From Prorocentrum cordatum (taxonomy: Eukaryota; Sar; Dinophyceae; Prorocentrales; Prorocentraceae): 64,000 nt of DNA. The notes under the pieces were generated by a model, which saw only the letters and a list, made by a program, of their open reading frames with translations, had not been told where the DNA came from and searched no databases. The position numbers and the translations under genes were made by a program. The DNA lies in NCBI GenBank assembly GCA_963575745.1, contig CAUYUJ010015726.1:961449-1025448 (forward strand), given 5' to 3'. Of this stretch, positions 1-19,390 are shown piece by piece; within the stretch, counting starts at the first letter, position 1, and each line of letters begins with the position of its first letter.

Positions 1-1025
1 GCGATTTTCTCGACGCGGAACATGTTGGGCTTGGCCATGACGCATCGGTGGATCTTTTCCCAGAGCTCCACGTGCGTGCCCTGCGGTGGTGAGTGTCCGT
101 CGATGATACTTTGGAACCCATCGACCACCGCCTGGTTGTCCACGAAAACGTGTACGGGCCGTTCAGCACATGCCGTGAGGTGGACAATGGCGAGGGTCTC
201 CGCAAGCTGTGCGTTCTGCGTAATGCCGTGAACGCGTGCACTGTAGTTCATGCGGTGGTCGATGCCGTAGTAGACGCCGTAGCCCGCTCGTGCAAGCAAT
301 GGGATGGCTTGGTTGGTGCATGCACCGTCCGTGGCAGCGTAGACCCATGTCCAACCAGTGTCGTGGTCAAGGTAGGTGGTGTAGGAGTCCTGGGCTGAAG
401 CCGCAGGATCTCCCTCAGGTGGGGGCCGCGGTATGGGCTGAGGTAGCGGGTCCCTCGCGAGGTCGGCCTGCAGGTCGAGGAGGGCTGGGTCTTCATCGAA
501 GAGCCCGCAGTGTCTTGTGTGCGGCGGAAGACGGGCCCACTGCTCGTCACTGATGAGGGTGGTGAGAGGGAGTCTTTCTCGGGCCCAGCACTTGCAGTCG
601 CGGACAGTGTGCTCCTGAGTTTCCTCTTCCTCGTCGCAGTATCGGCAGATGGGGCTGGGGTCAGCAGACGTGTTTGATCGGGATCGTCGCTGTTGGGTGT
701 GGTCCCCGCCCGACAGGTAGTTCAGGAGGAGCGCCAGCTGCCAGGCATTGCATTTGGCTGCTCCTTTCGTTCGGGCGAGCCACGTGCTGGCGAAGAGGTC
801 GAGGCCCTGTCTGACAGAGGCCAGGTGTCCAAGGTCATGACGCCGTGGCTTGATCTTTCTCAGAAAGGCTCTGCGTTGTGAGGCTCGCAGCATGTGAAGG
901 AAGGCGTTTTGGGGTAAGTTCAGCCAACTGATCTGACAGCCCCAGTCGTCGTACATGATGCCAAATGTGGGCCAGGTCCAACGGAGCTGCTGAAGCGTCT
1001 GGACAAGTCGTCCGACAGGTCCTCC
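1..1025 (-). CDS. LINE pol C-terminal part: zinc knuckle and RNase H domain (partial)
   Basis: This minus-strand frame (codons whose low base is a multiple of 3) stays open from about 1025 down to base 1 and runs off the window. A C-x2-C-x8-H-x4-C knuckle is read at 594-647, in the place where LINE polymerases carry the RT-associated zinc finger. An RNase H domain follows: Asp in AATDGA at 327-329, Glu in QLAETLA at 198-200 and Asp in VDNQ at 138-140 match the first three catalytic carboxylates; the fourth would lie beyond base 1. The domain would degrade the RNA strand of the RNA-DNA hybrid. It is in a different frame from the RT at 920-3067; the switch lies near the CCCCC run at 1024-1028, which suggests a one-base indel. 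Confidence 0.85.
387..409 (-). other. LINE hairpin 1
   Basis: Sense strand: outer stem TCCTG / CAGGA, bulged C, inner stem GGC / GCC, loop TTCA. Core bases are 388-408 and one further G-T pair flanks it. It lies inside the RNase H frame and is read there as AASA. Confidence 0.85.
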
Positions 1026-3067
1026 CCCAATAGGGTCTGAACGTGGTGTTGGAGATCCCTGACGAGACCGCAGAGAGTAGCGTCGCGGTTAACCTGTCGC
1101 CGCAGACACAGGAAAACTTCACGCTGCGTAATGGCGTCAATCTCCAGGGCGTGTCCTGGGACGCACACGGCCATGAGAGTCCAAAACTCGACCCACCTGT
1201 TTCCCTTGGGGCGGATAGCCGCCTTAAGGGCATGGTTGTAGGCAGTTTTGACGGGGCCTGATGGGGCTTGAATGTCGGTGCCCGTGGTACAGACGCTGGC
1301 AGCAAGGGAACGGGCGTGCCGCGCCTTAATAAGCATCGGTGATGGGAGCTTGCCAATGCGCGGCAGGCGACTAGTCGCCCTGCGAACACGGGCGTCAGCG
1401 GTGGCCGTGAGGTTAAGCGCGGCTGGAGCCGGCGCTGCCTCGGCGTTGATGTAACTCCCGACGAGCTTGAAGGAGTCGACCACGCGTAAGGGCCGTTCCG
1501 CCAGAGTGAGCTGGGTAACGGCGGTGTGAAGCTCGTCGGTGAGCGCCCACCCCGCCACTTTGCCAGGGTGAATGCGTTGACCTGAAAATCGATCAAACTT
1601 GGCGGTTTCATCAAGAGATTTCTGCAACTCAGGCGCGGTGTGAGTAGTGGAGTTGCTGTCGTCAACAAAGGTAGTGCTGAGTGATCGCGGAACGTATCGA
1701 TGCTGTCTCTTGGTCCACACACACATGAGCAGCTTAATGTCGTCCAGGGACCAAGAGCTTCCCTGGAGGTGACCGTTTGTCCTGGCCAGTTCCTTAGAGT
1801 ACGCACCGTTCATGCGGATGTAGCGTTTGTGGCGACTGTAGAAGTTTCTGCGGACAGTAACGATGTCTTGGGGGCACCCCGCGTGAAGCGCAAGGTTAAG
1901 GCAGATGTCCGTGATGAGGTAGTCGAAACACTTCTGTCGGTCCAGGGCAGCCCCAGCTAAGGGAAGGAGTAAGGCCCTGGCGTGTTCGATGCGCAGGGCA
2001 AGAGAGGTGCTGACGTCCCCAATGGTAGCTTTGGGGACAGCGCCAAAACTCGTGGCGTGGGTCCATCCTTTCCGCCAGTCCGTGAGGCTGCGGTAAGCTG
2101 GCGCTTCCCACGCATACATCCAAACGGAAAGCACCGAGAGAAGTCGTTGGTCCGTTGGGAGTTCGCCTCGGCCTTTTCGGAGGCACGGGTTTGGCACATG
2201 AAGGAGGGGTTCTGGGATGGTGCCAGTGCGTTGCATAGCGCGTAAGACGCTGGCGAAGAGGCGAAGGATGTCGTCGGGTAACTCCTTAGCCTCCTTAGTA
2301 GTCCAGCCGTCCAGTCCCCCCGCACGGCGCGGTGAACGGGTGCGAATAAAGTGGATGAGTTGGTCGTCGGTGAGGTGGAAAGGGGTAGCTGGTGATGGCG
2401 TAGGCAGCTCTTGTCGGTACTCGTCGTAGAAGTCGGCCCACGTCGGCATGGCTTCGGCGTCATGTCCCGCACGTGCACGGTACCTGCCCAAGATGGGCTC
2501 CCAGGTGTCGACCATGAGCTTAAGCATGTCCTTGGTGTTAGCAACAATGGCGTTGGCAGGGAGGATGTCGGGGACTTGCGCAGGTGGTGGTTCACGAGTG
2601 TGGTCTTCGTCGCTGTCCGTGTCGGGCGAACTACCGTCGCTGGGGCTGAAGCCGCCAGCTTCGGTGTCAGCGTCGCTGTCGTCCGTGCAAGCTTCGTCAG
2701 GTTTAAAGGCGTTGGTGTCGCAGTGGAGTTGCGTATCGTCAGGTGTGGTAGGCGTGCGGAGATACGCCGTGGGCGAGCTGTCAGCAGCCCGTGCGTATAT
2801 GGCCGCCTTTCGCCCGCTTGGCTCGCGGACGCCCTCAGCCCATATCTTGATGCGTTCAGCTTTGGCACGGTTCGCACGTCGCGCCAGCTCTAAGTCGAGG
2901 TTTTGGATCAAACCGTCAAGGTGCTCTCCGTGAGGTGCTGGCTCGTCGGGGGTCCAGGCCTCGGGGAAGTCAGGAGAACCGTGGGGCGCAGCTTGTGACA
3001 TAGGAGGCGGGCCGCGGTCCACGTGCAGTCGATGCGCTGCGCGAGGTACGGCGGGATGGCACGGCAA
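920..3067 (-). CDS. LINE reverse transcriptase domain
   Basis: A 715-codon open frame encodes a non-LTR reverse transcriptase. Visible motifs in order are LDGWTTKEA (fingers region, about 2280-2320), DRQKCFDYL (motif A, about 1905-1945), a divergent motif B with LQGSSWSLDD, and the catalytic FVDD at 1658-1669. It would copy the element's RNA at a nicked target site. The first codon of the open frame is TTG, so this is not a real start: the protein is continuous with the endonuclease upstream and the frame change lies between 2908 and 3067. The last 35 or so codons (920 to about 1025) are out of frame, because sequence matching the RT tail and RNase H continues in another frame. An acidic linker with GGFSP (hairpin 3) precedes the RT core. 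Confidence 0.88.
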   Translation of the reverse strand: MPCHPAVPRAAHRLHVDRGPPPMSQAAPHGSPDFPEAWTPDEPAPHGEHLDGLIQNLDLELARRANRAKAERIKIWAEGVREPSGRKAAIYARAADSSPTAYLRTPTTPDDTQLHCDTNAFKPDEACTDDSDADTEAGGFSPSDGSSPDTDSDEDHTREPPPAQVPDILPANAIVANTKDMLKLMVDTWEPILGRYRARAGHDAEAMPTWADFYDEYRQELPTPSPATPFHLTDDQLIHFIRTRSPRRAGGLDGWTTKEAKELPDDILRLFASVLRAMQRTGTIPEPLLHVPNPCLRKGRGELPTDQRLLSVLSVWMYAWEAPAYRSLTDWRKGWTHATSFGAVPKATIGDVSTSLALRIEHARALLLPLAGAALDRQKCFDYLITDICLNLALHAGCPQDIVTVRRNFYSRHKRYIRMNGAYSKELARTNGHLQGSSWSLDDIKLLMCVWTKRQHRYVPRSLSTTFVDDSNSTTHTAPELQKSLDETAKFDRFSGQRIHPGKVAGWALTDELHTAVTQLTLAERPLRVVDSFKLVGSYINAEAAPAPAALNLTATADARVRRATSRLPRIGKLPSPMLIKARHARSLAASVCTTGTDIQAPSGPVKTAYNHALKAAIRPKGNRWVEFWTLMAVCVPGHALEIDAITQREVFLCLRRQVNRDATLCGLVRDLQHHVQTLLGEDLSDDLSRRFSSSVGPGPHLASCTTTGAVRSVG
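1416..1436 (-). other. LINE hairpin 2
   Basis: Sense strand: outer stem AGCGC / GCGCT, bulged C, GGC / GCC, loop TCCA. All outer pairs are Watson-Crick, and the outer sequence is unlike that of hairpin 1. It lies in the RT frame. Confidence 0.85.
2639..2659 (-). other. LINE hairpin 3
   Basis: Sense strand: outer stem GCTGG / CCAGC, bulged C, GGC / GCC, loop TTCA. Read as GGFSP in the acidic linker before the RT core. Confidence 0.85.
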
Positions 3068-6000
3068 TCTAAATGATGGTGCTGTCCGATGAAGCGAAGC
3101 TCACAGAGTTGCCGATGGAGCTTGCGCAGTCGGTTCATGTGTATCGTGGAAGCTCCGTAGGTGGGGAAGGCGCGGGGGACAACTGGTCGCTCTTCGAACA
3201 TGGGCGTGAGCCCGTGCATGGTGGGGGGCTTCTTTTTTGGGTGGTCGGGCGGTGGAGGTGGCAGGTCGCGCAGACGGGTGAGATGGTACTCATGACTGGC
3301 CTCGTTAGCCAGGGCGAACATGCGCTCCACGTCGTCGCGTGTGTCGGCCTGTTCCATGCGGTCCTGATATCGCCCAGCGATGAGGGTCCCTAGTGCCTGC
3401 AGCTCGTGACCCTCATGAGCTCCATCGTTGGGAGGGTAGGGCGTGGGGGCAAGAAGACGTCGGGCCGTATGGTCGAGGCGACTGAGGTCAAGCGTGACCT
3501 GCAGGCCAACATGAGACTTCGCTGGCAAGTCGCGAAGGTAGCAGAAGTCGGTGACAAGGGATCGCGCCGCTTGGTTGGCAATGATATAATCAATGCGCGA
3601 GGTGCGGGGGCACTTGGTGACGCGGTCCCAGTCAGGGATATTGCCGTATGTGTGCATGGTGTGGTCTGGTGTGCCCTCAGCAACGTTGAACCATCCGTGC
3701 TGCAACATGTGCAGAAGGTGTGGATTGTCGTCGATGTTCGTATTGGCGTCCATGCAGATGAAGTAGGGGGCTGAGCCGACCCTAGCGGCGGCGCAGTCAG
3801 CGAGCCGAAAAAGAGCTGTGCTGTCTCCTCCAGCAATCCCGTAGAGGCTCGCTATGTAGATCCCCGCGGGCCCGTGGTTGTTTCGTCGCCGCCTGCGGCG
3901 GTGCTGAGTGCAGAGCGGGAGAAAGACCTCGTGCCATCTTTTCTTGGCCTTGAGGGCGACGATACAGGGCGCAGTGTCGTCGACAGTGGAGTCGACAATG
4001 GCATCCTTAGAGAGGATGGCGACCCCTCCCGAGGCGCCAGTGTTGCCCACGACGGTGTGGTCTGTGCCGCCGTGGGCAGCTCTGCGCTGGGCTCGCGCCA
4101 GATCCAGGTCAGGTCCAAGACTGGCGTGGTATCCCCCGTGGTGTGGATTGGCGGCGCTGGTAGCGATGGCTTGTCTGGTCGGCTTGGCATGTCGGGTCTC
4201 CTGCAGTGCTATGACTGCGGCGTTGTGGTCGACACCAAGAGCGGTGATGGTTGGCCAGTTCGCTGAGAGACTGGTGATGTTTAGGCTGACGAGGTGTATG
4301 GAGCGACCTGGCCCGTCTCCATCGGTGGAGCTGGGGTTTGCACGCCCCGCACGGTGAAGGTCAGCCTGACCCTCGCCCAGGTAGAAGGCTTGGCCACAGT
4401 AGGAGCTCATGGCGTTCCTATGGATTAGCTTGACCGGGGCTGAAGCCGCCGTCAGGCCAGAAGTATAGGCGGGACACGGTCGGCACTGCGCCAGGGGGGG
4501 TTCATAAACGTCAGTAAAACTGTCTCGAAAAATCCTCCTCACTCCTGTACCATAGGGGACGAGGGGAGGAGAGGTGAGACGGCAGCAGAGGGAGAGGGAG
4601 GCGACTCCTCGATCCGTCCTGCCGAACACAAAAGCAAAAGCGAACCAGCGGCGGCGGCTAGGCGCGGCAGCGGCACAACGCACGCGCATATACTGCGCAC
4701 GCGACACCGCTGGTCCGTCCTGCGGTGGCGCGCCCGCCCCGTCAGTATCTTGATGAGCAGCATCTGGTGGAACAGCTCCAGCAGCACGGTCGGAGGCCTG
4801 GCGCTGGGCCTCGTCCATGCCCGCTGCCGTGAGGCCCACGTTGCGGACAGGGCTGATCCCCCGCGGGGCCGCCGCTGCCGCGGCAGCGGCTGAGGTGGCG
4901 GGGGCTCCGCCCCGACTCTGAGGTGAGAGCGGTGAGCCACCGCCGAAACCCGCCACAAGGTTCTTGACACGGTACTTGTTCTTGAACGGGTCGAAGGTTG
5001 GCGCCTCGTCGATGGGGACGATCACGCGGGTGGGCAGCGGCGGCTCGTGGTCCGTGGACGGCGTCGGAGAGAGGTCGACCTGGCCAGGTTCGATGACGCT
5101 GGCTCCGAAGCGTGGCACCACTTCGGGGGCTCGGCCATCAGCCTGAGTCTCGCGAGGCGGCGAGCACGTGGAGCTCCCTGGGGCCTTGCGTGAGCTGTGG
5201 CGGCTGCAGGACCTGCTGCGCGGGACGCGCCCGCCCGTGTGGCGGTCGCGTGGCGAGGTCGCCTGGGCATTAGCGCGCTCGGAATCCGCCCTGCTCGGGG
5301 ATCGGATCGGCGCCGCGCAGGGTGATGGGCTGGGCTGGCGAGAGGCGCTTGTGCCGCCCTCCGCCGTGGCTGTGGCCTGGTCAGGGTCGACAGCGTCGGG
5401 GCGGGGGCTGACGTGGTGGGCGCTTCCCTCGCTGTGCCGCGGGGAGGCGCTGTGATGCGCCTGGATGTACGTGAGGACGAGCGGGGCAAGCGGCTGCCTC
5501 TCCCGCTCAGGTGGGGCAGGTTTTGCCTGGGCAGGGCGCAGCGCTGCAGCCACGTTTGGCGGGGGCGTGTGCTGGCGCGGTTGCCAAGCACGCACGTTCG
5601 CATCACGCCATCCTTCGGGGCGCCCAGTCCTGCCACGGTTTGTTGCAGCCCCCTGGGCTGAAGCCGCAGGGGTTATCACTGCGGGCTGGTTGCTGGAGGT
5701 GCCATCATGTCGGCCTGAGTAATGGCCCCAGGCGCGCGTGGACCCTGGCACGGGCGAGGTGGCCCTTGGGAGGGCCTGCACGGGTGCACGCGGGTAGCCG
5801 ATGACCGCTGGGTGTACCCTGGCGTGGGGGGCGTGGCCGTAGCTGGAGGCGGCTGCTCCAGCAGCCGCGGGCCTGGCACCTATGGGGCCACGGTAGTAGG
5901 CGGCAACCCCGCCGTAGGCCGTGTTGCCGCCTGTCGGGACTCGCGCGGGAGAGCGGTAGCGTGGCGTGCCCGGCTGTCCTGCGTCGCGTTGGTCGCGCTG

Positions 6001-7236
6001 CTGCATGCGCTGCTGATGCTGTTGATGTCGCTGCCAGTCGGCTCTCGAGAGGGGGCGGGTGTCGGGGAGGATGGTGGGCACGTCGGGCCGCTGCCAGCCC
6101 CGATAGACGTGCTCGAAGGCGTGGTCAGGGTAGGTCCCCCCTACGGGTGAGTATCGCCGCACATGCTCCATGTAGTCGATGTTCTGCGGCTCGGAGATCG
6201 CCGTGATGTTGACGGCTCGCTGGTGCGCTGGTCCATAGAGGCAGAAACTACCACGGTTGCTGCGGTCGTGGTTTAGCTCGGCTTCGGTCGTGGCACGGCT
6301 CACCATGGCGTCGCAGAGTCGCATGTCGTAGTCGAGGGCTTGAGGCCCAGGACCACCCTCGGCGTCCCAGTACAGTACCACGTCTCGCCAGCGGGTGCGG
6401 GTAGTGTGGATGCGCTCGGCGATCGACTCGCAGACGGTCCTGACCGTGACACGGTCCCTGTACATGTTGGTGATGGCTAGGGAGTAGGGTCGGCGGACCG
6501 TCTTGTTGAAGGTGAATTCCTCCTTGAGGGCCTGGTGGGGGCCGAAGAGCACGTAGCCTTCCCTCCAAAGAGGTTGGTCGGGGGAAAGGTTCTTCGGGCA
6601 TCCCCGTTCCTGTGAACCCAGGTGGCCGCCTTGTGCCGTCAGGCAGTCCCTGCCTGGGGACGCGCCGCGGCTTCGGTGGGAAGTACCATTGACCCTGGTA
6701 ACCTGCTTGCCCTGGTTGTGGAGGTTCCCCCCCGGGGCCTGAAGGCGCTCGGGGGGGTTCCTTAAGGTCGTGGAGGGCTGGCGCGTTGCCGAATTGGCGG
6801 GCAAGGATGTGCGGCGGCATCCCTGTGGCACGGACGTCGAGCAGGCTGTGTGGACTGGGGGGATGGGGGCACCTGCTGGACAGGCAGCATGTGTCGGAGT
6901 CCCTGTTGTTGGTGCTGTATGCACACGTCCAACTGTTGCACGAGTAGTCCGTGGACCAGTCCATAAGTGTACGCAGTCCGCTGCGGGCGCAGTCTGGGCA
7001 CGTTGGTTGGCCCGAGGTGCCGAGCTGCGTGTTGCGGCGAGCCGCACAGTACTGACAGCATTGGAATCGACACTGTAGGCAAGACCAGCGTCCTGGTAGA
7101 GGCGGGAGCGCATGCTCGTTTGTGCCTGGGTCGTCTGGGTGGGGTCGCGGGCGATCCCACAAGGGCCAGACGTCAGCAAACCAGGATTGGCCTGTAGTGC
7201 GGACAACCTCGGCGGGGAGGCGAGCGTCCTCGGCAT
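2908..7236 (-). CDS. LINE endonuclease (exonuclease-endonuclease-phosphatase fold) with long Pro/Arg-rich N-terminal region
   Basis: This is a 1442-codon open frame. The endonuclease domain is read at about 3490-4310: VSLNITSL, the catalytic Glu in LQETRHA, GGVAILSK, the DxN motif in CMDANTN and IDYIIAN are in canonical order. The usual terminal SDH is KSH, so one residue of that motif is changed. The enzyme would nick target DNA to prime reverse transcription. Upstream lies a disordered Pro/Gln/Arg/Ser-rich stretch and, at about 6120-6560, a folded-looking segment (VLYWDAEGG, FEHVYRGWQ) that I do not recognise. The part above about 6750 overlaps the Cys-rich frame at 6248-8689 and is probably a shadow. 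The ATG at 7236 is therefore unlikely to be the true start. Confidence 0.85.
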   Translation of the reverse strand: MPRTLASPPRLSALQANPGLLTSGPCGIARDPTQTTQAQTSMRSRLYQDAGLAYSVDSNAVSTVRLAATRSSAPRANQRAQTAPAADCVHLWTGPRTTRATVGRVHTAPTTGTPTHAACPAGAPIPPVHTACSTSVPQGCRRTSLPANSATRQPSTTLRNPPERLQAPGGNLHNQGKQVTRVNGTSHRSRGASPGRDCLTAQGGHLGSQERGCPKNLSPDQPLWREGYVLFGPHQALKEEFTFNKTVRRPYSLAITNMYRDRVTVRTVCESIAERIHTTRTRWRDVVLYWDAEGGPGPQALDYDMRLCDAMVSRATTEAELNHDRSNRGSFCLYGPAHQRAVNITAISEPQNIDYMEHVRRYSPVGGTYPDHAFEHVYRGWQRPDVPTILPDTRPLSRADWQRHQQHQQRMQQRDQRDAGQPGTPRYRSPARVPTGGNTAYGGVAAYYRGPIGARPAAAGAAASSYGHAPHARVHPAVIGYPRAPVQALPRATSPVPGSTRAWGHYSGRHDGTSSNQPAVITPAASAQGAATNRGRTGRPEGWRDANVRAWQPRQHTPPPNVAAALRPAQAKPAPPERERQPLAPLVLTYIQAHHSASPRHSEGSAHHVSPRPDAVDPDQATATAEGGTSASRQPSPSPCAAPIRSPSRADSERANAQATSPRDRHTGGRVPRSRSCSRHSSRKAPGSSTCSPPRETQADGRAPEVVPRFGASVIEPGQVDLSPTPSTDHEPPLPTRVIVPIDEAPTFDPFKNKYRVKNLVAGFGGGSPLSPQSRGGAPATSAAAAAAAAPRGISPVRNVGLTAAGMDEAQRQASDRAAGAVPPDAAHQDTDGAGAPPQDGPAVSRAQYMRVRCAAAAPSRRRWFAFAFVFGRTDRGVASLSLCCRLTSPPLVPYGTGVRRIFRDSFTDVYEPPLAQCRPCPAYTSGLTAASAPVKLIHRNAMSSYCGQAFYLGEGQADLHRAGRANPSSTDGDGPGRSIHLVSLNITSLSANWPTITALGVDHNAAVIALQETRHAKPTRQAIATSAANPHHGGYHASLGPDLDLARAQRRAAHGGTDHTVVGNTGASGGVAILSKDAIVDSTVDDTAPCIVALKAKKRWHEVFLPLCTQHRRRRRRNNHGPAGIYIASLYGIAGGDSTALFRLADCAAARVGSAPYFICMDANTNIDDNPHLLHMLQHGWFNVAEGTPDHTMHTYGNIPDWDRVTKCPRTSRIDYIIANQAARSLVTDFCYLRDLPAKSHVGLQVTLDLSRLDHTARRLLAPTPYPPNDGAHEGHELQALGTLIAGRYQDRMEQADTRDDVERMFALANEASHEYHLTRLRDLPPPPPDHPKKKPPTMHGLTPMFEERPVVPRAFPTYGASTIHMNRLRKLHRQLCELRFIGQHHHLDCRAIPPYLAQRIDCTWTAARLLCHKLRPTVLLTSPRPGPPTSQHLTESTLTV
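4429..4456 (-). other. LINE hairpin 4
   Basis: Sense strand: outer stem CCTGAC / GTCAAG with one C-A mismatch (a wobble on the other strand), then GG / CC, bulged C, GGC / GCC, loop TTCA, and one unpaired G. It lies just before the endonuclease domain. Confidence 0.75.
5650..5672 (-). other. LINE hairpin 5
   Basis: Sense strand: outer stem CCCCTG / CAGGGG, bulged C, GGC / GCC, loop TTCA. All six outer pairs are Watson-Crick. It lies in the Pro/Arg-rich region upstream of the endonuclease. Confidence 0.88.
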
Positions 7237-8689
7237 GGCACCTGATCCACTGGGGCCCCATGTCCGCTGGTACCATGACGGTGCGCCAGGTGTCGTCCGC
7301 TTTGACGTGGACGTGGGTCGGTGCCCAGAGCTTAGTAGTGGTGTCGCCGTGGTCGTGGTGGAGGATGACCCAGCCGTCCCGCCCCGCCACCGCAGGGTCT
7401 ATAACGCGGTGGCCCATGACTGTCGTCCCCCACGGTAAGTAGGCACCGTCGTGGTGATCACCAGGGTCAAGCCAGACCTCGATGCCAGGGGCATTGACAC
7501 GGGTCCGCACATCACGGACGTGGTAGGCGAGGACGTGGTAGGCAGTCGGCTCCTCTTCCGTCACAATGTGCTCCCACGTCTCGATGCCACTGTTGTCTGA
7601 GGTGGAGTTCCCGCCACTCTGTCGCGACGAGCGAGAGGCAGATCGTCGTGGGCGGGCACGGCCTCGGGCGAGGGCGGCGGCCGCGCTGATGAGGGAAGGC
7701 GTACGGCGTTCGTCGGCTCCAGATGACGTCGATGAGCGGTCTGGACTGTGCGCCAGGGCTGTGCCTGACTTGTAAGTGCGTGGTGGGCCCGACGCGGCCC
7801 CAGGGCTGGAGCCGCTGGGGCGCGACCCGCGTGCGTCAGGATGCCCCCGCACGGGGACCGCTTGCAAGCCAGTGTACACCAGGTCGATGAGTGGTTTCGG
7901 GTCCAGCTGGAGCATGTGAAGCGAGACGCGTGGGCGGGGCTGGTTAGGGTCATCCCTTGTGGCTGCTTCCGTGTCGTAGTGCTGTTTGGCCCATACTCGC
8001 GCTGCCTCTGGCGAGTATAGTGCCTGCGGCGGTGGCCATGCTGCCGCGATGTCTAGCCTGCGCCTGGTGCTAGCTTCCTGGTCGTGAGCTTCAGCCGCCT
8101 CACGGAGATCTGGATGATCGTAGCCAGCGATGTGGAGGGCGTGCGCACAGTCGCCCATGCCATAGGCGTGTGGAAGGGCACGGCACCTGGAAGCAGCTTC
8201 TGTGGGGGCACACCAGTCCATGCGGATGAGGAGGCTCAGGACCCGAGGGTACATGAGGCGCGCTCCGTGGGCCTCCCCTTTCACGTAGTTGTGCCTGTTT
8301 TCCCCGCGCGGTGGTTGGGCGGCCTCGCACATCCAGAGTGCGATGGGTCCCCACGCGAGGGTGTCGTCTTCAAGACTGTAGGGCGGGTGGGGCGGCATTG
8401 CATACCACGCTGCCAGCGAAGGGTGCACGCTCGCGTACGTGCGGCCAACGTTGGTGCCAGTTCGGCCCTTCGCTTCACGGCGGGGACCTGGCAAGAGGTG
8501 CCCTCCACTGGCAGCAAGACGGGCCGCAAGGTCGCCGCGGGTCCCATGCCAGAAGACAGTGGGCGCGTCGGTGTGGGTTGGCGGAGGTCCCACGTGAGGT
8601 ATGGGAAGATTGTCTCGCCTGAGTTCCCGCCCGAGTCTTCCAGCACCCAAGTGAGGCGGTTCGGTGGCCTCTGCATGATGTCCGTCCAC
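6248..8689 (-). CDS. LINE-encoded Cys-rich and Arg/Ser-rich region, function unknown
   Basis: This is an 813-codon open frame beginning at a GTG, so the start is not real; it continues the frame at 8281-11270 after a shift near 8590. Near its N-terminus it reads VFWHGTRGDL followed by GRTYASVHPSLAAWYA, which faintly recalls the HGTR and Y...A..YA signatures of ADP-ribosyltransferase folds; I regard that as a weak resemblance only. A Ser/Arg-rich middle follows, and then a cluster of cysteines at about 6830-7095 (RWSCLQCRFQCCQYCAARR and further pairs) that looks metal-binding. The real coding frame probably moves to the 2908-7236 frame around 6560-6760, so the last 150 or so codons here are likely shadow. 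Confidence 0.6.
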   Translation of the reverse strand: MDGHHAEATEPPHLGAGRLGRELRRDNLPIPHVGPPPTHTDAPTVFWHGTRGDLAARLAASGGHLLPGPRREAKGRTGTNVGRTYASVHPSLAAWYAMPPHPPYSLEDDTLAWGPIALWMCEAAQPPRGENRHNYVKGEAHGARLMYPRVLSLLIRMDWCAPTEAASRCRALPHAYGMGDCAHALHIAGYDHPDLREAAEAHDQEASTRRRLDIAAAWPPPQALYSPEAARVWAKQHYDTEAATRDDPNQPRPRVSLHMLQLDPKPLIDLVYTGLQAVPVRGHPDARGSRPSGSSPGAASGPPRTYKSGTALAHSPDRSSTSSGADERRTPSLISAAAALARGRARPRRSASRSSRQSGGNSTSDNSGIETWEHIVTEEEPTAYHVLAYHVRDVRTRVNAPGIEVWLDPGDHHDGAYLPWGTTVMGHRVIDPAVAGRDGWVILHHDHGDTTTKLWAPTHVHVKADDTWRTVMVPADMGPQWIRCHAEDARLPAEVVRTTGQSWFADVWPLWDRPRPHPDDPGTNEHALPPLPGRWSCLQCRFQCCQYCAARRNTQLGTSGQPTCPDCARSGLRTLMDWSTDYSCNSWTCAYSTNNRDSDTCCLSSRCPHPPSPHSLLDVRATGMPPHILARQFGNAPALHDLKEPPRAPSGPGGEPPQPGQAGYQGQWYFPPKPRRVPRQGLPDGTRRPPGFTGTGMPEEPFPRPTSLEGRLRALRPPPGPQGGIHLQQDGPPTLLPSHHQHVQGPCHGQDRLRVDRRAHPHYPHPLARRGTVLGRRGWSWASSPRLRHATLRRHGEPCHDRSRAKPRPQQPW
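6727..6757 (-). other. LINE hairpin 6
   Basis: Sense strand: outer stem CCCCCCCGAG / CCCGGGGGGG with one A-C mismatch, bulged C, inner stem swapped to GCC / GGC, loop TTCA. It is the longest GC stem of the set and lies close to a frame change. Confidence 0.85.
7797..7821 (-). other. LINE hairpin 7
   Basis: Sense strand: outer stem GCCCCAG / CTGGGGC, bulged C, GGC / GCC, loop TCCA. Seven outer Watson-Crick pairs. It lies in the Ser/Arg-rich region. Confidence 0.88.
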
Positions 8690-11270
8690 GGCCCCAGCGC
8701 TTGGAGTGTTGGATCATGAGTAAATCGAGGATGGTCGTGGAGTCGCAGCGCGTCTTTGATGTCCTCTGTAGACACGCCACTGTTACCTAGCGCAAAGCCG
8801 TTTTGATACATGGCGTTAAGTATGCTCTTCGGCGGCACGGGGACCGCTGGGTCGCGCTGGATGGTGTTGCGTAAGTTGCGTGTCGTTGGCTTGAGGGCTG
8901 TGTAAGGCATACCAGGGCCTGAAGGCGCCTGGGGCCTGTCGGGTGATGCATAGCGTGCTCGCCGTCGTGGTGGTTGGGTGTCCGCGTCAGGGGAGGAACC
9001 ACGAGCGTCAGCATGTCGGAAGATGGACCACGGGCTATCGTGGGTGCGCTCACGCGTTTCCCTTGCCTCGGTGTCGCTGCCGTGTGCTGTGGCATCCTCG
9101 TTAGTCGGTAGGATACCGAATGCCACGCCGCTCTTGGAGCCGTCTCGTGGAGACGGGCTAGTCGATCTTGGTGTGACAGACGAGGCTCGCGATACGGCGG
9201 CAGTGACTTCGACGATGGCGGCGGTGGTGGCGGTAGTGACATCGGCGACTGCGGCGGCAACTGCTGCGGCATAGTGTTCCTGTAGCAGCGGATGTCGGAG
9301 TGCGTGCACATGCTGGTCGTCGTGTTCGTCGGCGAGCGTGCACGGCATTTTGTATGTGGCCTCATCCCGCGGCCTCCTGCTCGGTTGGCAACAGCGGAGG
9401 CACCACTGGGCTGTGGATGAGTCCAGGGCCCGCGCACAGATGCGGGCTCCTACGTGTCCGACAGCTCCCTGGGCAAGAAGTATGGCACCGACGAGTAGAA
9501 GACCACACACGACTCCACCCGTGGCAATAGCCCCTAGCTTGCCGCTGGCCCATTTCAGGACACCCCCGAGGCCGACCCCGACTGCGGTGGCTCCGCCCGA
9601 GACGCTATCTCTGAGTTTGACGCTGGTCCATTCGAGAGTGGCCCACAATGTGGACGTGACATTGTATGTCGTTTTGCGTCGGGCTGTGGTGGACACCGAT
9701 GGGCCTGGTGCCGTCGCTTTGCGTCGTCGTCGTTGTCGGTAGCTGGGGTCTCGGCTCGGTGTCGGCAAGTACCCATCGATCAGGTCCTTGTACGGCATTG
9801 CTATCGCGATGGCGTACGTGGCCACAAAGAGGCAGATGAGGCAGCCACAATGTCGTGATGCCGCTGCGCTGTGCTGGGGCTCGTGGGAACCGCTGGCATC
9901 TGGGTGCTCATCATCGATGGGGTCGTTGTCGATGTCGGCCTGCCAGTGGCCAATGACACTGGGGTTGGAGTCAGTCGCGTTGTCACGGTGTACAGAGGTG
10001 AAGGGCGTGGTGCTGCCACCTGCGGTCTGGGGATGTCCAGGTCTAGCCAGTGGTGCAGCGGGGCTGAAGCCGCCACTGCACAGACTGGCATGAGCTGGCG
10101 ATGCAGTGGAATGGCTTGTCGCGTCGGCGGCAGTGACGCCTTCAGCGTCGTTGAGCTGTGCGCCGAGGTCGGCCTGAGCTGAGTTGTGGGGCGGACTGCT
10201 GTGCAACGCGGTGTGCCCAAAGTAGGGTTCACTGTCGCGGTCACGCTGGGCCGAGTCGCCTGGTGGTGTCGTGCCGTCTCGATCCTGGGTAACGATGCCG
10301 TCCTGGCTATCGTCCGACGCGTGGAACGAGTCCATGGATATGTTGCCGATATCGCTGGCCGCGATGTGCTGTAGCAGCCATGATACGGGATCATCTGCGG
10401 CCTGATCGGTGCCGTCCATCGGCGCCGCGGCGAGCTCCGCCTCGACGAGCGGCAGCATGTCTGGCGTTTGGTGCAGGATCACGTCGGCGAGGTACGCCAT
10501 GGCGTCTTGGTCGGGTGGAGGGAGGCCTCTTGGCAGCAAAGCATGGGCCCGTGAGAGGTATGGCGGCAAAGGTGCCGAGAAAGCCTCAGGGCCGACGAGC
10601 GTGGCACGAGCGCCCTGGTATTCCAGAAGGAGGCCAAAGTAGCGGGTGGCGTACTCGCGGCTGCTCTGGATACAAGTGAGGTTGCGGTTGGTGCGCTGCC
10701 TGTCGGGGTCCGCTCTGTGCCAGATGTCCTCGCACATGTCGACCGCGGTGCGCTGACGCAGGGCGTCGGTTGTGTCCTCAGAATCCTCCTGAAAGAGGTG
10801 ATCGTACTGTGGCAGATGAAGCGTCGCCAGGATGTACGGGACGCAGTCCTCGAGCCATGCCCAGAACACGTCCTGGTGGTCCTCACCTGGTGCCCACGCC
10901 GCAGCACACGGTATTAGCCGGGCGCGGATCATCATCAGGTGCCAGAAAGCAGGGTCCTCCTCGGGTTCGCCCCTAGCGCACAGGGGGGTGGTGAGACCCG
11001 TAGGGCGATAGCGGGGCACAACAGCGGGGCTGAAGCCGCCACTGTGTGCCTGGCCTATGCCGCACGGACCCGCGGCAACGGTGCCGTTCACGATCGGGTC
11101 CAAAATGGTGCAGTGATCGTACTTGTAGATGCTGTCATCGTAGAGGTAGAAAAGGGTCCCACGTTCAGCGTGTCGCAGGAAAACCTCACCTCCATGCTGG
11201 TCGCACCGCCTGAAGACGGGTGTGCTCCAGCGAGCGAGGGGAGGGCCAGGCTGCAGGCAAGGCGCCACAT
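8281..11270 (-). CDS. LINE-encoded membrane-type protein with signal-peptide-like start
   Basis: The main frame here (995 codons, 8281-11268) starts at a GTG. An ATG at 11270 in a neighbouring frame opens with MWRLACSLALPSLAGAHP, a hydrophobic stretch ending in small residues like a signal peptide. One shift near 11215 would join it to the main frame at FRRCDQHGGEV. Further on are an NGT sequon and two strongly hydrophobic segments, CLICLFVATYAIAIAMP (about 9795-9855) and LLLVGAILLAQGAVG (about 9450-9540), followed by an Ala/Thr-rich stretch. Two GGFSPA copies come from hairpins 9 and 10. The final 400 bases overlap the next frame. Membrane proteins are not standard LINE parts; the topology is inferred from hydrophobicity alone. 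Confidence 0.6.
8912..8932 (-). other. LINE hairpin 8
   Basis: Sense strand: outer stem CCAGG / CCTGG, bulged C, inner stem swapped to GCC / GGC, loop TTCA. Both sides of the inner stem have changed together relative to most copies. Confidence 0.88.
10046..10089 (-). other. LINE hairpin 9
   Basis: Sense strand: GTGCAG / CTGCAC, a T-G wobble, GG / CC, bulged C, GGC / GCC, loop TTCA. Outside a small internal loop a further GCCAGT / ACTGGC stem pairs, giving the widest hairpin. Read as GGFSPA. Confidence 0.85.
11015..11050 (-). other. LINE hairpin 10
   Basis: Sense strand: nine outer pairs between GGCACACAG and its partner (one extra base on the partner side), a T-G wobble, GG / CC, bulged C, GGC / GCC, loop TTCA. 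Read as GGFSPA. Confidence 0.85.
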
Positions 11271-11531
11271 GATGGCGAGGCCTGGCGGGCGGCGCGAGCG
11301 ATGAGCCAAAAGCTGCATGTCAGCACGCATCCTCAAATACCCCTGCATGCTCATGTACATTGCAACAATCACGCCCCCTGCAAGATGACGGGTGTCCCTA
11401 CACCAGATAGCTTGCACGTGCTGCTGCCAAAACTGACATGATATGACAAGAAAGAGATACTACGCGAAGAGAGAAGAGATGCCTCTGAAGGCGCTTCCTC
11501 GGAGGGCTGAGGCAGGCTCTCTGAGGCACCT

Positions 11532-12883
11532 TCAATAGGGTTCCTGAGTGACCCGACCCTTGTCTTTGCCTTTGTCAGCCCCTGGGGGCCCCGTCCCTGG
11601 GGTGACCTGGCCTGGCTGGTCAATCCACCCGCAGACAGCCACGGGATCGGCAACTGATGCAGCTTCCTCCTTTTTTGTTTCGAGAGTGGCCACCTGTGTC
11701 AGGTGGATGGTGCCCCCCGTGAGGTGCCCGAGGAGGGCCTGGATGTCGCCACGCAGTGCAGCGGCTTCGGCGGTTGCCGTCGGTTGCTGGGTGACGACGG
11801 TGGCAAGCCCCCGTTCCAAACCTGAGACGTGCTCCGTGAGTGTGGCCTGGGAGGAGAGAACGCCCGCAAGCTGAACCTGCATGTTATCCACCGTGTTGGC
11901 AAGCAGCACGTGCTGTTGTTCCATGTGTTGGATGCGGGTCGTGGCGGCATCTGGCAGTTTAGGGGCCGATGCGAAGCGTTCGCCGAAGGTGTTGAGTTCG
12001 TGGGAAGCCACGCTGTATCCATCACCTGATGAGAGGATCTCGACGTCGTCAGCGTCGCCTGGTACTTCGGCGGCTGTGGCAGCGTCCCCTTCGGTGTGGC
12101 CCCCACCTTCAGCCGCCACCGTGCCAAGTTGCGGGTCATGACCACCTGATCCTTGGACGGCCGTCTGCTCGGCAGCTCCGTCCGTGCCGTGCGGGGGTGC
12201 AGAGGAGCTGCGGCCTGGGGCGCCGTGTGATCTTGCGTGCGGCGTGGCGTCGCGTTTCCACTGGAGGATCGGTGGCGCTTGGCTAAAGGCTCCTCCTTGG
12301 GGATCAGGAGCGGTGCGACGCCCTTGCCTTTGGGCGTGGCAGTCATGAGGTCGTGGAGGTAAGGGCTCTGGGCTGCTTTGGTTAGGAGTGTGCCCGTGGC
12401 GGGGCTGAAGCCGCCACCACGGGCTGGCGGCGTCACAGGCTCTGTGATAGTGGTAGGGGTGACAATGGTAAAGTTGTCCCTCTTCGGCACCACCTCAGCC
12501 AACGGGGCCTCGGTGATGCTCCACGGGATGGGGCACCCTGCGACCTGTACCGTATATGTGGGTGGGGGACGATGAGCGCGCACTAAGGCAAACTGAGCCG
12601 AAGTGGCTGGGTCCCAGGCGGTGTGGTAGACCTCGCAGTCCCATTTGACGGACGGGCCCGTGAGAGTCTTAGCAAGCTGGGTCAGCGTGGCGCGGCGTGC
12701 CGCAATGCCAGTGATGCGGTATCGCGTCTTGGCGAGAGTGGCTTCACAGCCACGGATGCTGACGGCAGCAGCCTTGGCGGCGTCTGACCCTCGTGCAACA
12801 CGGATCCCCAATAAGCCTGACTTGCCATGCCTGACGACTCCTAGGGCCTTGAAGTCCACCGACTTCTGGAACGCATCTGCCAT
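11532..12883 (-). CDS. LINE second N-terminal protein (ORF1-like, coiled coil)
   Basis: A genuine ATG at 12883 opens MADAFQKSVDFKALGV and a compact basic domain with RYRITGIAARRATL, which looks like the nucleic-acid-binding ORF1 proteins of dinoflagellate LINEs, though I cannot assign a named family. Around 12130 the sensible frame changes: downstream sequence in the frame 11532-12119 gives an acidic stretch (DADDVEILSSGDG) and a heptad-like coiled coil (HMEQQHVLLANTVDNMQVQL, LTEHVSGLERGL), then a Lys-rich tail ending at 11532. The other frame reads on to 11699 but is Pro/Ser-rich nonsense there. The coiled coil would allow trimerisation as in other ORF1 proteins (inference). Upstream of the ATG a related frame (TVWFPEDSP) suggests that an earlier shift may join it to the 13048-14100 protein. 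Confidence 0.6.
12392..12424 (-). other. LINE hairpin 11
   Basis: Sense strand: outer stem GCCCGTGG / CCACGGGC, a T-G wobble, GG / CC, bulged C, GGC / GCC, loop TTCA. Eight perfect outer pairs. Read as GGFSPA in the second N-terminal protein. Confidence 0.88.
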
Positions 12884-13047
12884 CGTGATGGGCTGTCCTC
12901 AGGGAACCACACGGTCTGGTACTTGTCTGCAGTGGGCTCGTCTGCACCTACGTTGCTGAGGTCGTAGGTGGCGCCGAGTTGCCCTGAACCCGCCAAGACC
13001 TTGTCAACCGCTTGAAGACTGACGCCGAAGGTGGCAGCCAGGGACCT

Positions 13048-14100
13048 CTATCCGACGCCCGATCCATACCTGCCTAGGCTTTTGCAGGGTTCGAGGATGG
13101 TGACGGCTTTAAAGTTGCCGTGGAAGAGGGCCTTGAAGGTGTCCTGGAGCTGACTATCGAGCTCCTGGCGGCGAGCGTCTTTCTTGGACTCCCTGTGTTT
13201 TTGGTTTTGGCGCGCCTTGTCCTGTGGAGCGGAGTCCCTTCGGAAAGGACCCTTGGCGCGTGGACCACCGTACACGGGGGCACCTCCCGAGAACTGATCC
13301 TCGAAGGCCTGATGCATGGAGGGGACTGCGGCGATGGCTTCGGTTTCATGTATGGTCACCCGAATCCAGCATACGTGGTCGGCAGGATCGATGGTGGCGA
13401 CGGCTACATTTTCCGTGCAGGCGACTTCCTTGGTGCCCAGCTGGTACACGGTCACGGGGACGTGCGTGTGGACCACTTTGGGCGCCTTGGGGTGACGCTT
13501 CAGCACGGGGACGGCGAGCTCGGTACCGACGTAGTTGTCGTTTTTTGGGCCCAGGACAGCAATCGCAAGCTGACCCGTGGTACGCTTACCCTGCACGAGG
13601 TGGTGTTGCAGCAGCCGTTCTCCGCTCTCGTAGTCGTGGAGGCTGATACTGGGCTTGTACGTCTTGCCGTCGTCAAGTGATGTGGGTTCGGCGAGGACTG
13701 GGACCTTCCAGAAGGCCGGGTCCAAGGCAATGAAATGGGCGTCCGCAGCCTGAAGACGTGCGGACGCAGCTGGTGGGTGTGATGTGTCACCACCAATGCG
13801 CTTAGGCTTGCTGCGCTGGTGGTGATCCAGCGTGTAGCTGATCTGGTTGGCGGCACACATGCGGATCAAGGCACTGCCGAGCTTCTTTGTGTTGGTATTG
13901 TGCATGTCGTACGTGGCCTGAAGCTCGTCCGCGTTCAGCTCGGCTAGCCCGTTGTATGCGGCCGTGGGGCGGTCGGACCCCGCTTGCTTGAAAGCTGCGA
14001 TGCAGTCCTGCTTGCGTTGGAGGAGAGACCCTTCGGCAGCAGGACGTGAGCTCGGCGGCTGCTTGGAAGAGCGACGGCGCTCCGGCTTGCCGGGGGCCAT
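13048..14100 (-). CDS. LINE first N-terminal protein (ORF1)
   Basis: This is a 350-codon frame from an ATG at 14100 (MAPGKPERRRSSKQPPSS) to a TAG at 13048-13050. The open frame continues upstream only through the CT/GA microsatellite as a Ser-Leu repeat, so the ATG at 14100 is the best start. The N-terminus is basic, and a globular region follows (AIAVLGPKNDNYVGTELAVP, DHVCWIRVTIHETEAIAAVP). The C-terminus is Lys/Arg-rich (KARQNQKHRESKKDARRQ), as expected for an RNA-binding chaperone-like ORF1 protein. I do not recognise the fold. It sits directly upstream of the 12883 ORF in sense order, consistent with a multi-ORF element. Hairpin 12 lies inside it at 13739-13767. Confidence 0.6.
   Translation of the reverse strand: MAPGKPERRRSSKQPPSSRPAAEGSLLQRKQDCIAAFKQAGSDRPTAAYNGLAELNADELQATYDMHNTNTKKLGSALIRMCAANQISYTLDHHQRSKPKRIGGDTSHPPAASARLQAADAHFIALDPAFWKVPVLAEPTSLDDGKTYKPSISLHDYESGERLLQHHLVQGKRTTGQLAIAVLGPKNDNYVGTELAVPVLKRHPKAPKVVHTHVPVTVYQLGTKEVACTENVAVATIDPADHVCWIRVTIHETEAIAAVPSMHQAFEDQFSGGAPVYGGPRAKGPFRRDSAPQDKARQNQKHRESKKDARRQELDSQLQDTFKALFHGNFKAVTILEPCKSLGRYGSGVG
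13739..13767 (-). other. LINE hairpin 12
   Basis: Sense strand: outer stem GCGTCCGCA / TGCGGACGC, bulged C, inner stem GTC / GGC (with a T-G wobble in the sense strand), loop TTCA. It lies in ORF1 and is read there as RLQAAD. Confidence 0.85.
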
Positions 14101-14256
14101 TGCGGCGGGCGCTCTGGTGGGGAGAGAGGTGACGCGAATCAGTAGGGTCCTGCTGGGACCCCTCCGGTCTCGCGAGGCCTGGGAGTCTGACTCCGAGGCG
14201 GGGCGCTTCGCGTCGCGGCTGCGGTCTGAGTGCAGGGCACTCTCGAGCCGAGACTG

Positions 14257-14441
14257 GAGAAAGAAAGAGAAAGAGAGAGAAAGGGAGAGAAAGAGAGAGA
14301 AAGAGAGAGAAAGAGAGAGAAATAGAGAGAGAGAGAGAAAAAGAGAGAGAAAGAGAGAGAAATAGAGAGAGAGAGAGAGAGAGAGAGAAAAGAGAGAGAA
14401 AGAAGGAGAGAGAGATAAGAGAGAGAGAGAGGAGAGAGAGG

Positions 14442-14531
<90 letters not shown>
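14257..14531. repeat. GA microsatellite (CT on the LINE sense strand)
   Basis: About 275 bases of interrupted (GA)n with GAAA variants and a few T interruptions. It immediately precedes ORF1 of the LINE in sense orientation, so it forms or borders the element's 5' UTR. Open frames through it (Ser-Leu or Arg-Glu repeats) are artefacts. Confidence 0.95.
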
Positions 14532-14533
<2 letters not shown>

Positions 14534-19290: not shown

Positions 19291-19390
19291 NNNNNNNNNN
19301 NNNNNNNNNNNNNNNNNNNNNNNNNNNNNNNNNNNNNNNNNNNNNNNNNNNNNNNNNNNNNNNNNNNNNNNNNNNNNNNNNNNNNNNNNN
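19291..19390. other. Assembly gap of 100 N
   Basis: Exactly 100 N, the conventional placeholder for a scaffold gap of unknown size. Frames running through it are not real proteins, and the order of the two sides depends on the scaffolding. Confidence 1.

Follow-up and report, generated by a model that had tools for sequence, protein, structure and literature searches.

What function could be served by a series of small bulged hairpins dispersed through the coding sequence of a retrotransposon? The question is raised by a 64,000-nucleotide stretch of the genome of the dinoflagellate Prorocentrum cordatum (the window), in which the hairpins are carried by a giant LINE of about 16 kb. The following regions can be tentatively recognized in this element.

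13048..14100, minus strand: N-terminal ORF1-like region with hairpin 1 in a variable linker; 5 relatives, 55-98% identity
3565..4233, minus strand: endonuclease/exonuclease/phosphatase-like domain; PF03372, E 9.1e-5, 22.8 bits (cut-off 24.5)
920..3100, minus strand: frame with a divergent reverse transcriptase (RT) region; no Pfam match of its own
93..335, minus strand: RNase H-like domain; PF00075, E 2.9e-4, 21.5 bits (cut-off 25.8)

A relative of the RT frame, P0004 (25% identity), matches RVT_1 at 24.2 bits, below the cut-off of 29.6, and the translation of the frame itself contains FVDD, which we take to be an RT motif. In other copies of the element, open frames of up to 5505 amino acids surround the RT. 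Pfam detected no capsid families among eight frames, and no relatives of the RT were found in viral and genome contig collections.

On the minus strand, between window positions 385 and 13766, lie 13 bulged hairpins with a common architecture that consists of an outer stem whose sequence is free, a single bulged base, a 3-bp inner stem and a mostly UYCA loop. Two further hairpins are located downstream of the window set, in another copy of the element, for a total of about 15. The first-pass annotation had counted 12; the series is real, with a stronger case than was first made for it, and the claimed positions are correct, all on the minus strand, but the true number in the window is 13.

Hairpin 1, 13740..13766, minus strand (bulged base 13758): 9 outer bp, bulged C, GTC/GGC, TTCA; 32.2 bits; codon phase 0 (SARLQ)
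Hairpin 2, 12395..12421, minus strand (12413): 11 outer pairs (one U.G), bulged C, GGC/GCC, TTCA; 38.6 bits; codon phase 2 (GGFSP), with a weak frame signal
Hairpin 3 (weak), 11200..11226, minus strand (11218): 4 contiguous outer bp, GTC/GGC, TTCA; 27.9 bits
Hairpin 4, 11020..11046, minus strand (11038): 7 outer pairs including U.G, GGC/GCC, TTCA; 34.9 bits
Hairpin 5, 10054..10080, minus strand (10072): 9 outer pairs including U.G, GGC/GCC, TTCA; 38.1 bits
Hairpin 6, 8909..8935, minus strand (8927): 5 outer bp, swapped inner stem GCC/GGC, TTCA; 31.8 bits; phase 1 (APSG)
Hairpin 7, 7796..7822, minus strand (7814): 7 outer bp, GGC/GCC, TCCA; 34.3 bits
Hairpin 8, 6729..6755, minus strand (6747): G-C, A.C mismatch, then 6 bp; swapped GCC/GGC; 33.6 bits
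Hairpin 9, 5648..5674, minus strand (5666): 6 outer bp, GGC/GCC, TTCA; 35.1 bits; phase 1 (AASA)
Hairpin 10, 4430..4456, minus strand (4448): 2-3 outer bp, one unpaired base (3' arm), 4 bp; GGC/GCC, TTCA; 29.0 bits
Hairpin 11, 2636..2662, minus strand (2654): 5 outer bp, GGC/GCC, TTCA; 32.8 bits
Hairpin 12, 1413..1439, minus strand (1431): 5 outer bp AGCGC/GCGCT, GGC/GCC, TCCA; 29.2 bits
Hairpin 13, 385..411, minus strand (403): 5 outer bp TCCTG/CAGGA, GGC/GCC, TTCA; 31.7 bits

The inner stem is GGC/GCC in nine sites, with the two swaps to GCC/GGC that had been described, and GTC/GGC in two sites rather than one; the loop is TTCA in 11 sites and TCCA in two. The statement that all outer stems differ is mostly accurate but slightly too strong, since some share letters next to the core: 12413, 11038 and 10072 have GTGG/CCGC or GGTGG-like letters in common, and 5666 and 403 have CCTG/CAGG. 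The motif is the minimum-energy fold in 17 of the 18 sites folded, the exception being 11218, where the minimum-energy fold of the 33 nt differs from the motif. A palindrome with five outer pairs and no bulge is present at 5853-5864.

Short stems abound in coding DNA of high GC content, and a combination of chance, base composition and codon usage has to be considered as the source of the series. A covariance model built from the sites recovers 13/13 at E<2e-4, with all 13 strong window matches on the LINE sense strand, and finds no other match above 14.2 bits on either strand of the 64 kb, including the unrelated sequence of positions 15501-64000. Likewise, loci L009-L028 comprise about 32 kb outside the elements in which the model matches nothing at E<=1 (by coordinate comparison); equal density in unrelated DNA, which the first-pass annotation had set as a refuting outcome, is not observed. 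The widest gap (2654-4448) contains no overlooked hairpin (best score, 7.3 bits), and Rfam has no match in the window at the gathering score. On the LINE strand (window 1-15500), cores defined by a Watson-Crick inner stem, a C bulge and a T[TC]CA loop number 12, compared with a mean of 0.71 and a maximum of 4 in 200 dinucleotide shuffles; 11 of these are hairpin sites and the remaining one (offset 8185) is devoid of an outer stem. Six cores on the LINE strand have at least four Watson-Crick outer pairs, against none across all 200 shuffles, and the seven control cores, one on the opposite strand and six in the remaining 48.5 kb (both strands), have at most one outer pair each. Furthermore, Watson-Crick pairing of an arm with its own partner is 91%, compared with 44% for the arms of other sites, a result matched in 0 of 20,000 swaps that stands when one site is used per innermost 4-mer (13 of 18 sites). 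The fraction of paired cells is 87.4%, against 59.1% in column shuffles and at most 52.8% in slid registers. The earlier assertion that the series cannot be chance is upheld by the shuffles, the model scan and the arm swaps; these results, along with the constraint described below, refute chance at this sensitivity and leave it with virtually no probability.

The hairpins are under nucleotide-level constraint in different codon phases. Among the copies of the element, 10 of 315 hairpin columns are polymorphic, compared with 820 of 4500 in the flanks, and at the third codon positions of ten sites the figures are 4/70 and 291/1000. In the core and the first five pairs, 15 of 4002 letters deviate from the consensus, versus 1881 of 56,149 in the flanks (3.4%; flank sums by hand), whereas the outermost pairs 6-8, with 35 of 1143 letters differing, are as variable as the flanks. 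Since the hairpins use codon phases 0, 1 and 2, the constraint applies to the nucleotides and not to the protein alone. The encoded peptides SARLQ and GGFSP are retained in some relatives from other sources; GGFSP of hairpin 11 is found in relative P0001, and relative P0009 (56%) has ASLQ in place of SARLQ. Individual sites range from hairpin 7, invariant in 10/10 aligned rows, and hairpin 3, with core and inner pairs kept in 10/10, to hairpin 6, which has lost its 5' half in 1/10, and hairpin 12, with the inner stem broken in 2/23 (two variants). Further conserved blocks exist among the copies; one of them, 11470-11550, folds unremarkably (z -1.38).

The near invariance of the hairpins leaves little variation in which compensation between homologous copies could be seen. 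The outer stems do not mutate freely, but compensation is almost absent and some pairs are broken: at pair 8, one two-sided change kept pairing (site 12413) and two lost it, pairs 7-8 are broken in many haplotypes, and pairs 3 and 5 show single breaks. The covariation that had been proposed for the outer stems is thus evident between sites but rarely visible between copies, and it is not a phylogenetic signal of the R-scape type. Selection on RNA predicts an excess of G.U over A.C, and the weak excess observed (6 versus 3 cells) is a point against an RNA reading.

The hairpins are evenly spaced, about one per 1.2 kb, with merged gaps of 1028-1794 (mean 1221, CV 0.17), an evenness matched by none of 200,000 uniform random placements; tight pairs, 114-180 nt apart, also occur. 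Regular spacing, together with the mostly coding location of the sites, two of them in variable linkers, is what would be expected if the hairpins were a translation device that slows ribosomes between the folded units of a polyprotein, every 400 codons or so. However, slowing a ribosome requires no fixed loop or bulge base, the tight pairs do not fit such a device, and in a related repeat (locus L011, see below) the site at 1201-1227 lies past the stop codon of a long ORF, so that we consider this explanation improbable. The location of two sites in variable linkers, the use of all three phases and the constant core are also compatible with miniature palindromic insertions that hopped into the LINE, for which the REP, RPE and double-hairpin elements provide examples. 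Against this origin, which appears highly improbable, the outer stems are not a single sequence, the lone place of presence/absence (in copy C93) is aligned gap-free in eight of nine other rows, the ninth ending inside it, and the core with an A/T first outer pair is near background genome-wide (1207 versus 907 for the reversed pattern).

The motif is also found in a second repeat family (40 scored of 365 candidate places), which has its 3' end in common with the LINE (378 of 432 letters alike, about 65 of them (CT)n). No Pfam domain was found in this partner family, and no RT by Pfam or tblastn; for want of an RT match, it may be non-autonomous. Partner locus L011 contains six hairpins (18.3-38.4 bits), three of which were included in the covariance model and two of which have a bulged A; their spacing is less even than in the LINE (merged gaps 1031, 2078 and 1758, by hand). 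In L047/L048, loops and one inner stem are altered; a third repeat unit is decayed. All sites, 13 in the window, two downstream and six in the partner, have one orientation relative to their element, which is unexpected for independently arising DNA sites and disfavours the cruciform alternative of the first-pass annotation. A cruciform or structured-DNA binding site would account for the palindromic DNA, the G.U versus A.C counts do not discriminate against it, and condensed dinoflagellate chromatin makes a function at the DNA level conceivable, but given the single orientation we regard it as very improbable.

The single orientation, the fixed bulge-to-loop geometry, the nucleotide-level constraint and the presence of partner sites lend partial support to the original proposal of protein-binding-type RNA hairpins in a LINE. 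We therefore favour, with a confidence slightly above even, the view that the sense RNA is punctuated by these hairpins as recognition sites for a putative trans-acting RNA-binding protein, probably encoded by the LINE. Such a protein would read the bulge, inner stem and loop, with about five outer pairs serving as a clamp; it would bind the long RNA at spaced positions and mark or compact it, either for RNP assembly or to hold the right template for the RT, and the partner element, bearing the same sites, would be taken up in trans. The ORF1-like region at 13048..14100 is a candidate binder. Its structure model (mean pLDDT 44.6) is confident only for a helical part, residues ~25-90, and Foldseek gave no match to the PDB at E<=0.001.

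Alternatively, the reader could be an RNA-binding protein of the host, acting in the localisation, export, stability or silencing of the LINE RNA, which would also account for sharing with the partner element and has a precedent in Drosophila, where Egl-BicD acts on a bulged stem-loop in the I-factor coding sequence (PMC13186709). Host genes or other LINEs should then carry the signal too. The exact 13-mer core occurs 12,016 times genome-wide, compared with 390 for the reversed pattern, but among 100 listed places 96 have another listed one within 5 kb on the same contig (by hand), as expected from this LINE family. Another abundant LINE clade was examined through four members on contigs in the core listing: C37, C92 and C130 have no exact 13-mer, the only form tested, near the RT, and the fourth, C48, was picked for having the exact core. 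A site of this second clade found via the exact core, L041 (seven outer pairs, two G.U, 27.9 bits), is probably isolated, given the lack of a listed exact core near those three RTs; L042, without a motif stem, was rejected as a chance occurrence. In addition, fifteen evenly spaced copies exceed the apparent need of a localisation signal, and a host reader seems to us credible but rather unlikely.

A more specific form of the reading that we favour, an element-encoded reader, is that the LINE RNA has a built-in ruler, a hairpin per ~1.2 kb allowing the protein to coat or segment the 16-kb RNA regularly. This would amount to a capsid-free, virus-like packaging code, adopted by the partner for carriage; we offer it as a tentative possibility, itself doubtful. 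How LINE proteins choose and organise their own RNA appears to be known chiefly at the 3' end or in the form of non-specific coating. A hairpin code that is internal, regularly spaced and almost invariant is a concrete, testable recognition element in a LINE, offers a route to its reader protein and exemplifies selection acting on RNA structure within a mobile element's coding sequence, the motif being present in thousands of copies in this one genome.

The closest analogy might be sought in the operator of phage MS2, which combines a bulge, a short stem and a tetraloop. Single-stranded RNA viruses, MS2 among them, are described as having multiple dispersed packaging signals (PMC4751978, PMC6281560, PMC7612645), which resemble the present series in that many small stem-loops with a common recognition motif are arrayed along a long RNA; the series differs in belonging to a LINE and not a virus, in sites that look more uniform and are evenly spaced, and in having no known coat protein. 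The I-factor stem-loop (ILS), required for transport of I-factor RNA, is likewise a bulged stem-loop within the coding sequence of a LINE-type retrotransposon, and both binding and localisation suffer when the bulges of such signals are deleted, but the ILS has a known host binder and the part of that report available to us mentions no repeated series (PMC13186709). Among dinoflagellates, the SymbioLINE elements of Symbiodinium carry endonuclease, RT and RNase H domains (PMC5890265), for which the present element gives sub-cut-off scores and, for the RT, a match via a distant relative that is itself below cut-off; the main text of that paper does not mention hairpins, stems or palindromes. In open-licence PMC full text, no title or abstract opening describes a comparable series, and strings with the motif letters seem, from the listed entries, to come from oligonucleotides used in unrelated studies. 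Finally, in stringent-type LINEs, as far as the parts of the sources available to us describe them, the protein recognizes the 3' tail RNA, and LINE/SINE pairs share this tail (PMC4176376, PMC5135761, PMC6510757). Our partner element has the 3' end of the LINE in the same manner, but the hairpins are internal and repeated, and are common to the two elements in addition to that end.

Positions 1 to ~14.1 kb of the window (minus strand; window GC near 0.60) are occupied by a LINE with endonuclease-like, divergent reverse transcriptase (RT) and RNase H-like regions, the first and last of which match PF03372 (22.8 bits, below the cut-off of 24.5) and PF00075 (21.5 bits, below the cut-off of 25.8). 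Upstream of these, open frames extend over about another 10 kb. The reading frames are interrupted in this copy; among 62 scored LINE copies the RT-containing frame stays open over as many as 5505 codons, and the element therefore probably encodes one giant polyprotein. It has the look of a LINE that targets microsatellites and builds up arrays. (CT)n/(TC)n tracts adjoin the ends of the LINE and of a second, partner element that shares its 3' end (window ~14260-14540, L009 ~3910-3993, both ends of L011, L046 617-730), and the two are arranged head to tail (LINE-partner-LINE on C2; partner, then LINE 5' end, in L046). Several LINE copies are followed downstream by a 152-bp tandem repeat (L009 ~2532-3652, also L016 and L017), and the window has an N run at 19291-19390, either a gap in the assembly or withheld sequence.

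The LINE carries a series of hairpins, each consisting of a 5' outer arm, one bulged base, a 3-bp inner stem, a TTCA or TCCA loop and a 3' outer arm. Where the first-pass annotation had described 12 sharing one core, a covariance model finds 13 in the window, named here by the position of the bulged base, and there are two more downstream in the copy at L009. The model was built on an alignment of 18 sites (13 from the window, the two downstream and three from the second element), one near-duplicate and two weaker second-element sites having been omitted ahead of counting; the bulged base is C in all 18 and A in two other partner-element sites. Of the 198 pair cells, 87.4% are filled by standard pairs; shuffling the columns 500 times lowers this to 59.1%, and sliding the register to 52.8% or less. 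Minimum-energy folding gives the motif at 17 of the 18 sites, the exception being 11218. The 13 window matches (27.9-38.6 bits) follow from the construction of the model, but the absence of others does not: matches are not equally dense in other sequence, the best one elsewhere in the 64 kb, on both strands, reaching 14.2 bits. Across 32 loci of the genome (L009-L040) the model gives 177 matches at E ≤ 1, in 29 loci, and those in L009-L028 fall, by coordinates, within LINE copies or the second element.

The proposal that the outer stems covary holds between sites; between copies, where the hairpins hardly vary, compensated changes are seldom seen. For the five innermost outer pairs, each site's own 3' arm gives 90% Watson-Crick pairs, against 44-45% when whole arms are dealt among sites, and none of 20,000 deals reached the own-arm level; when each innermost 4-mer is represented once (13 of the 18 sites) the values are 91% and 44%. 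When 15 LINE sites were aligned across the available copies (between 6 and 23 rows at each; the window may be counted twice at sites it covers, since L029 is the same copy), a single two-sided change retained its pair, while breaks were frequent at pairs 7-8 and occurred once each at pairs 3 and 5. The inner stem of site 1431 is broken in 2 of 23 rows, the 5' half of site 8927 is gone in 1 of 10, and five sites show single loop changes. The scarcity of compensated changes, together with these breaks, counts against a simple covariation story.

The same alignments nevertheless reveal strong constraint. In the core and five pairs 15 of 4002 letters depart from the consensus, compared with 0.032-0.042 per letter in flanks of up to 150 nt on each side; the outermost pairs 6-8 are as variable as the flanks (18/570 and 17/573). 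Polymorphic columns number 10 of 315 in hairpins versus 820 of 4500 in flanks, and a 21-nt window slid over the alignments meets 10 such columns at the hairpin and at least 39 elsewhere (median 56). A coding frame is visible from third-position excess at 10 of the 15 sites (weakly at 12413), the other five being excluded from the codon analysis as their frame is not clear; one of the ten lies in phase 0, six in phase 1 and three in phase 2. Since at these sites 4 of 70 third-codon-position columns in hairpins are polymorphic, versus 291 of 1000 in flanks, the constraint exceeds what protein selection alone explains. The longest monomorphic runs across copies are not at hairpins (75 nt at window 13068-13142 and 54 nt at 12307-12360, both minus strand). 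Two monomorphic stretches of 28 and 36 nt lie near a frame end at 11478-11546 (minus), where the predicted fold is not unusual.

At the protein level, hairpin-coded peptides are retained in relatives from other sources despite variable neighbouring linker residues. SARLQ, coded at site 13758, is present in P0005 (98%), P0006 (85%) and P0007 (60%), and P0009 (56%) has ASLQ in its place, to which P0008 does not extend. GGFSP, coded at site 2654, is present in P0001 (74%); near it P0002 has APSG, the peptide expected from a swapped-stem hairpin, and P0003 lacks the surrounding stretch. P0005, a 482-aa protein from a 'Myxococcales bacterium' MAG that is 98% identical to the LINE ORF1 region, probably stems from dinoflagellate DNA that was binned with bacterial sequence.

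From 5' to 3' the gaps between LINE sites are 1345, 1195, 180, 966, 1145, 1113, 1067, 1081, 1218, 1794, 1223, 1028, 1299 and 117 nt. With sites less than 200 nt apart merged, the mean gap is 1221 (CV 0.17), an evenness equalled in none of 200,000 uniform placements, a null that takes no account of protein constraints; as the copies are of one ancestry, this counts as one observation. A search of the widest gap (1794) for a weak hairpin found none. The most diverged copy (C93) has an extra hairpin (17.6 bits, E 0.26, seven outer pairs including two G.U) 37 nt from the homologue of site 10072. The other copies have no hairpin there and align across the place without gaps in 8 of 9 rows (the ninth alignment ends inside it), so here a hairpin arose or disappeared through substitutions, not insertion.

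Over the 4,128,499,153 bases of the genome, the core with a G..C first outer pair occurs 12,016 times, against 390 for the reversed pattern, whereas the form with A or T is near background (1207 versus 907; 23 of 100 listed places actually paired, A..T or T..A). The enrichment is thus linked to this family of elements. Among 100 listed G..C-form places, 96 lie within 5 kb of another on the list; two of the four isolated ones are in LINE copies, one (L042) was judged chance, and one (L041), inside the RT frame of a different LINE clade, is probably an isolated hairpin. That very abundant clade has a different RT and is split into many subfamilies, 52-71% identical (147 scored; 19,400 first-look candidates).

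The second element and its hairpins are placed as follows.
L011 ~130-7600, minus strand: second element, flanked on either side by a LINE copy on C2, with a CT-rich start and low-complexity ORFs
L011 1201, 2845, 2959, 5037: strong hairpins, 34.3-38.4 bits, three of them in the model
L011 5939, 6068: hairpins with bulged A, 18.3 and 20.7 bits

No Pfam domain was found in its ORFs, and tblastn against the LINE proteins gave no similarity except over 71 residues in the shared 3' end, where 378 of 432 letters are alike (~65 of these (CT)n). A 2.4-kb probe identified 365 candidate places, self included, of which the 40 scored match most of its length at 94-100% identity. Parts of three further copies (L046-L048) contain nine model matches (25.3-37.4 bits); in L047 and L048 the hairpin loops are altered, a single outer pair is broken and a single base is missing. 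A ~114-bp tandem duplication at L011 2845-2985 holds one hairpin per unit, and all four copies also have a third unit, which has decayed. Spacing is less even than in the LINE. These hairpins match what would be expected if they, like the 3' end, were needed for using the LINE machinery in trans.

The RNA-hairpin series is real, specific and strongly constrained. The hairpins all face one way, bulge and loop keep a fixed geometry above a freely varying outer stem, the nucleotides are constrained in every codon phase, and a partner element with the LINE's tail has the hairpins too. Together these features suggest sites in RNA that would be recognised by a protein acting in trans. As the motif, the isolated L041 site apart, is confined to this LINE and its partner within the sequence searched, we prefer, with moderate confidence, an element-encoded reader over a host protein. 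The even spacing suggests that such a protein may load at intervals along the very long LINE RNA. The literature searched contained no description of such a series in a LINE. Precedents that may, by analogy, bear on the LINE hairpins are dispersed packaging signals (PMC4751978) and the I-factor's bulged stem-loop for localisation (PMC13186709).
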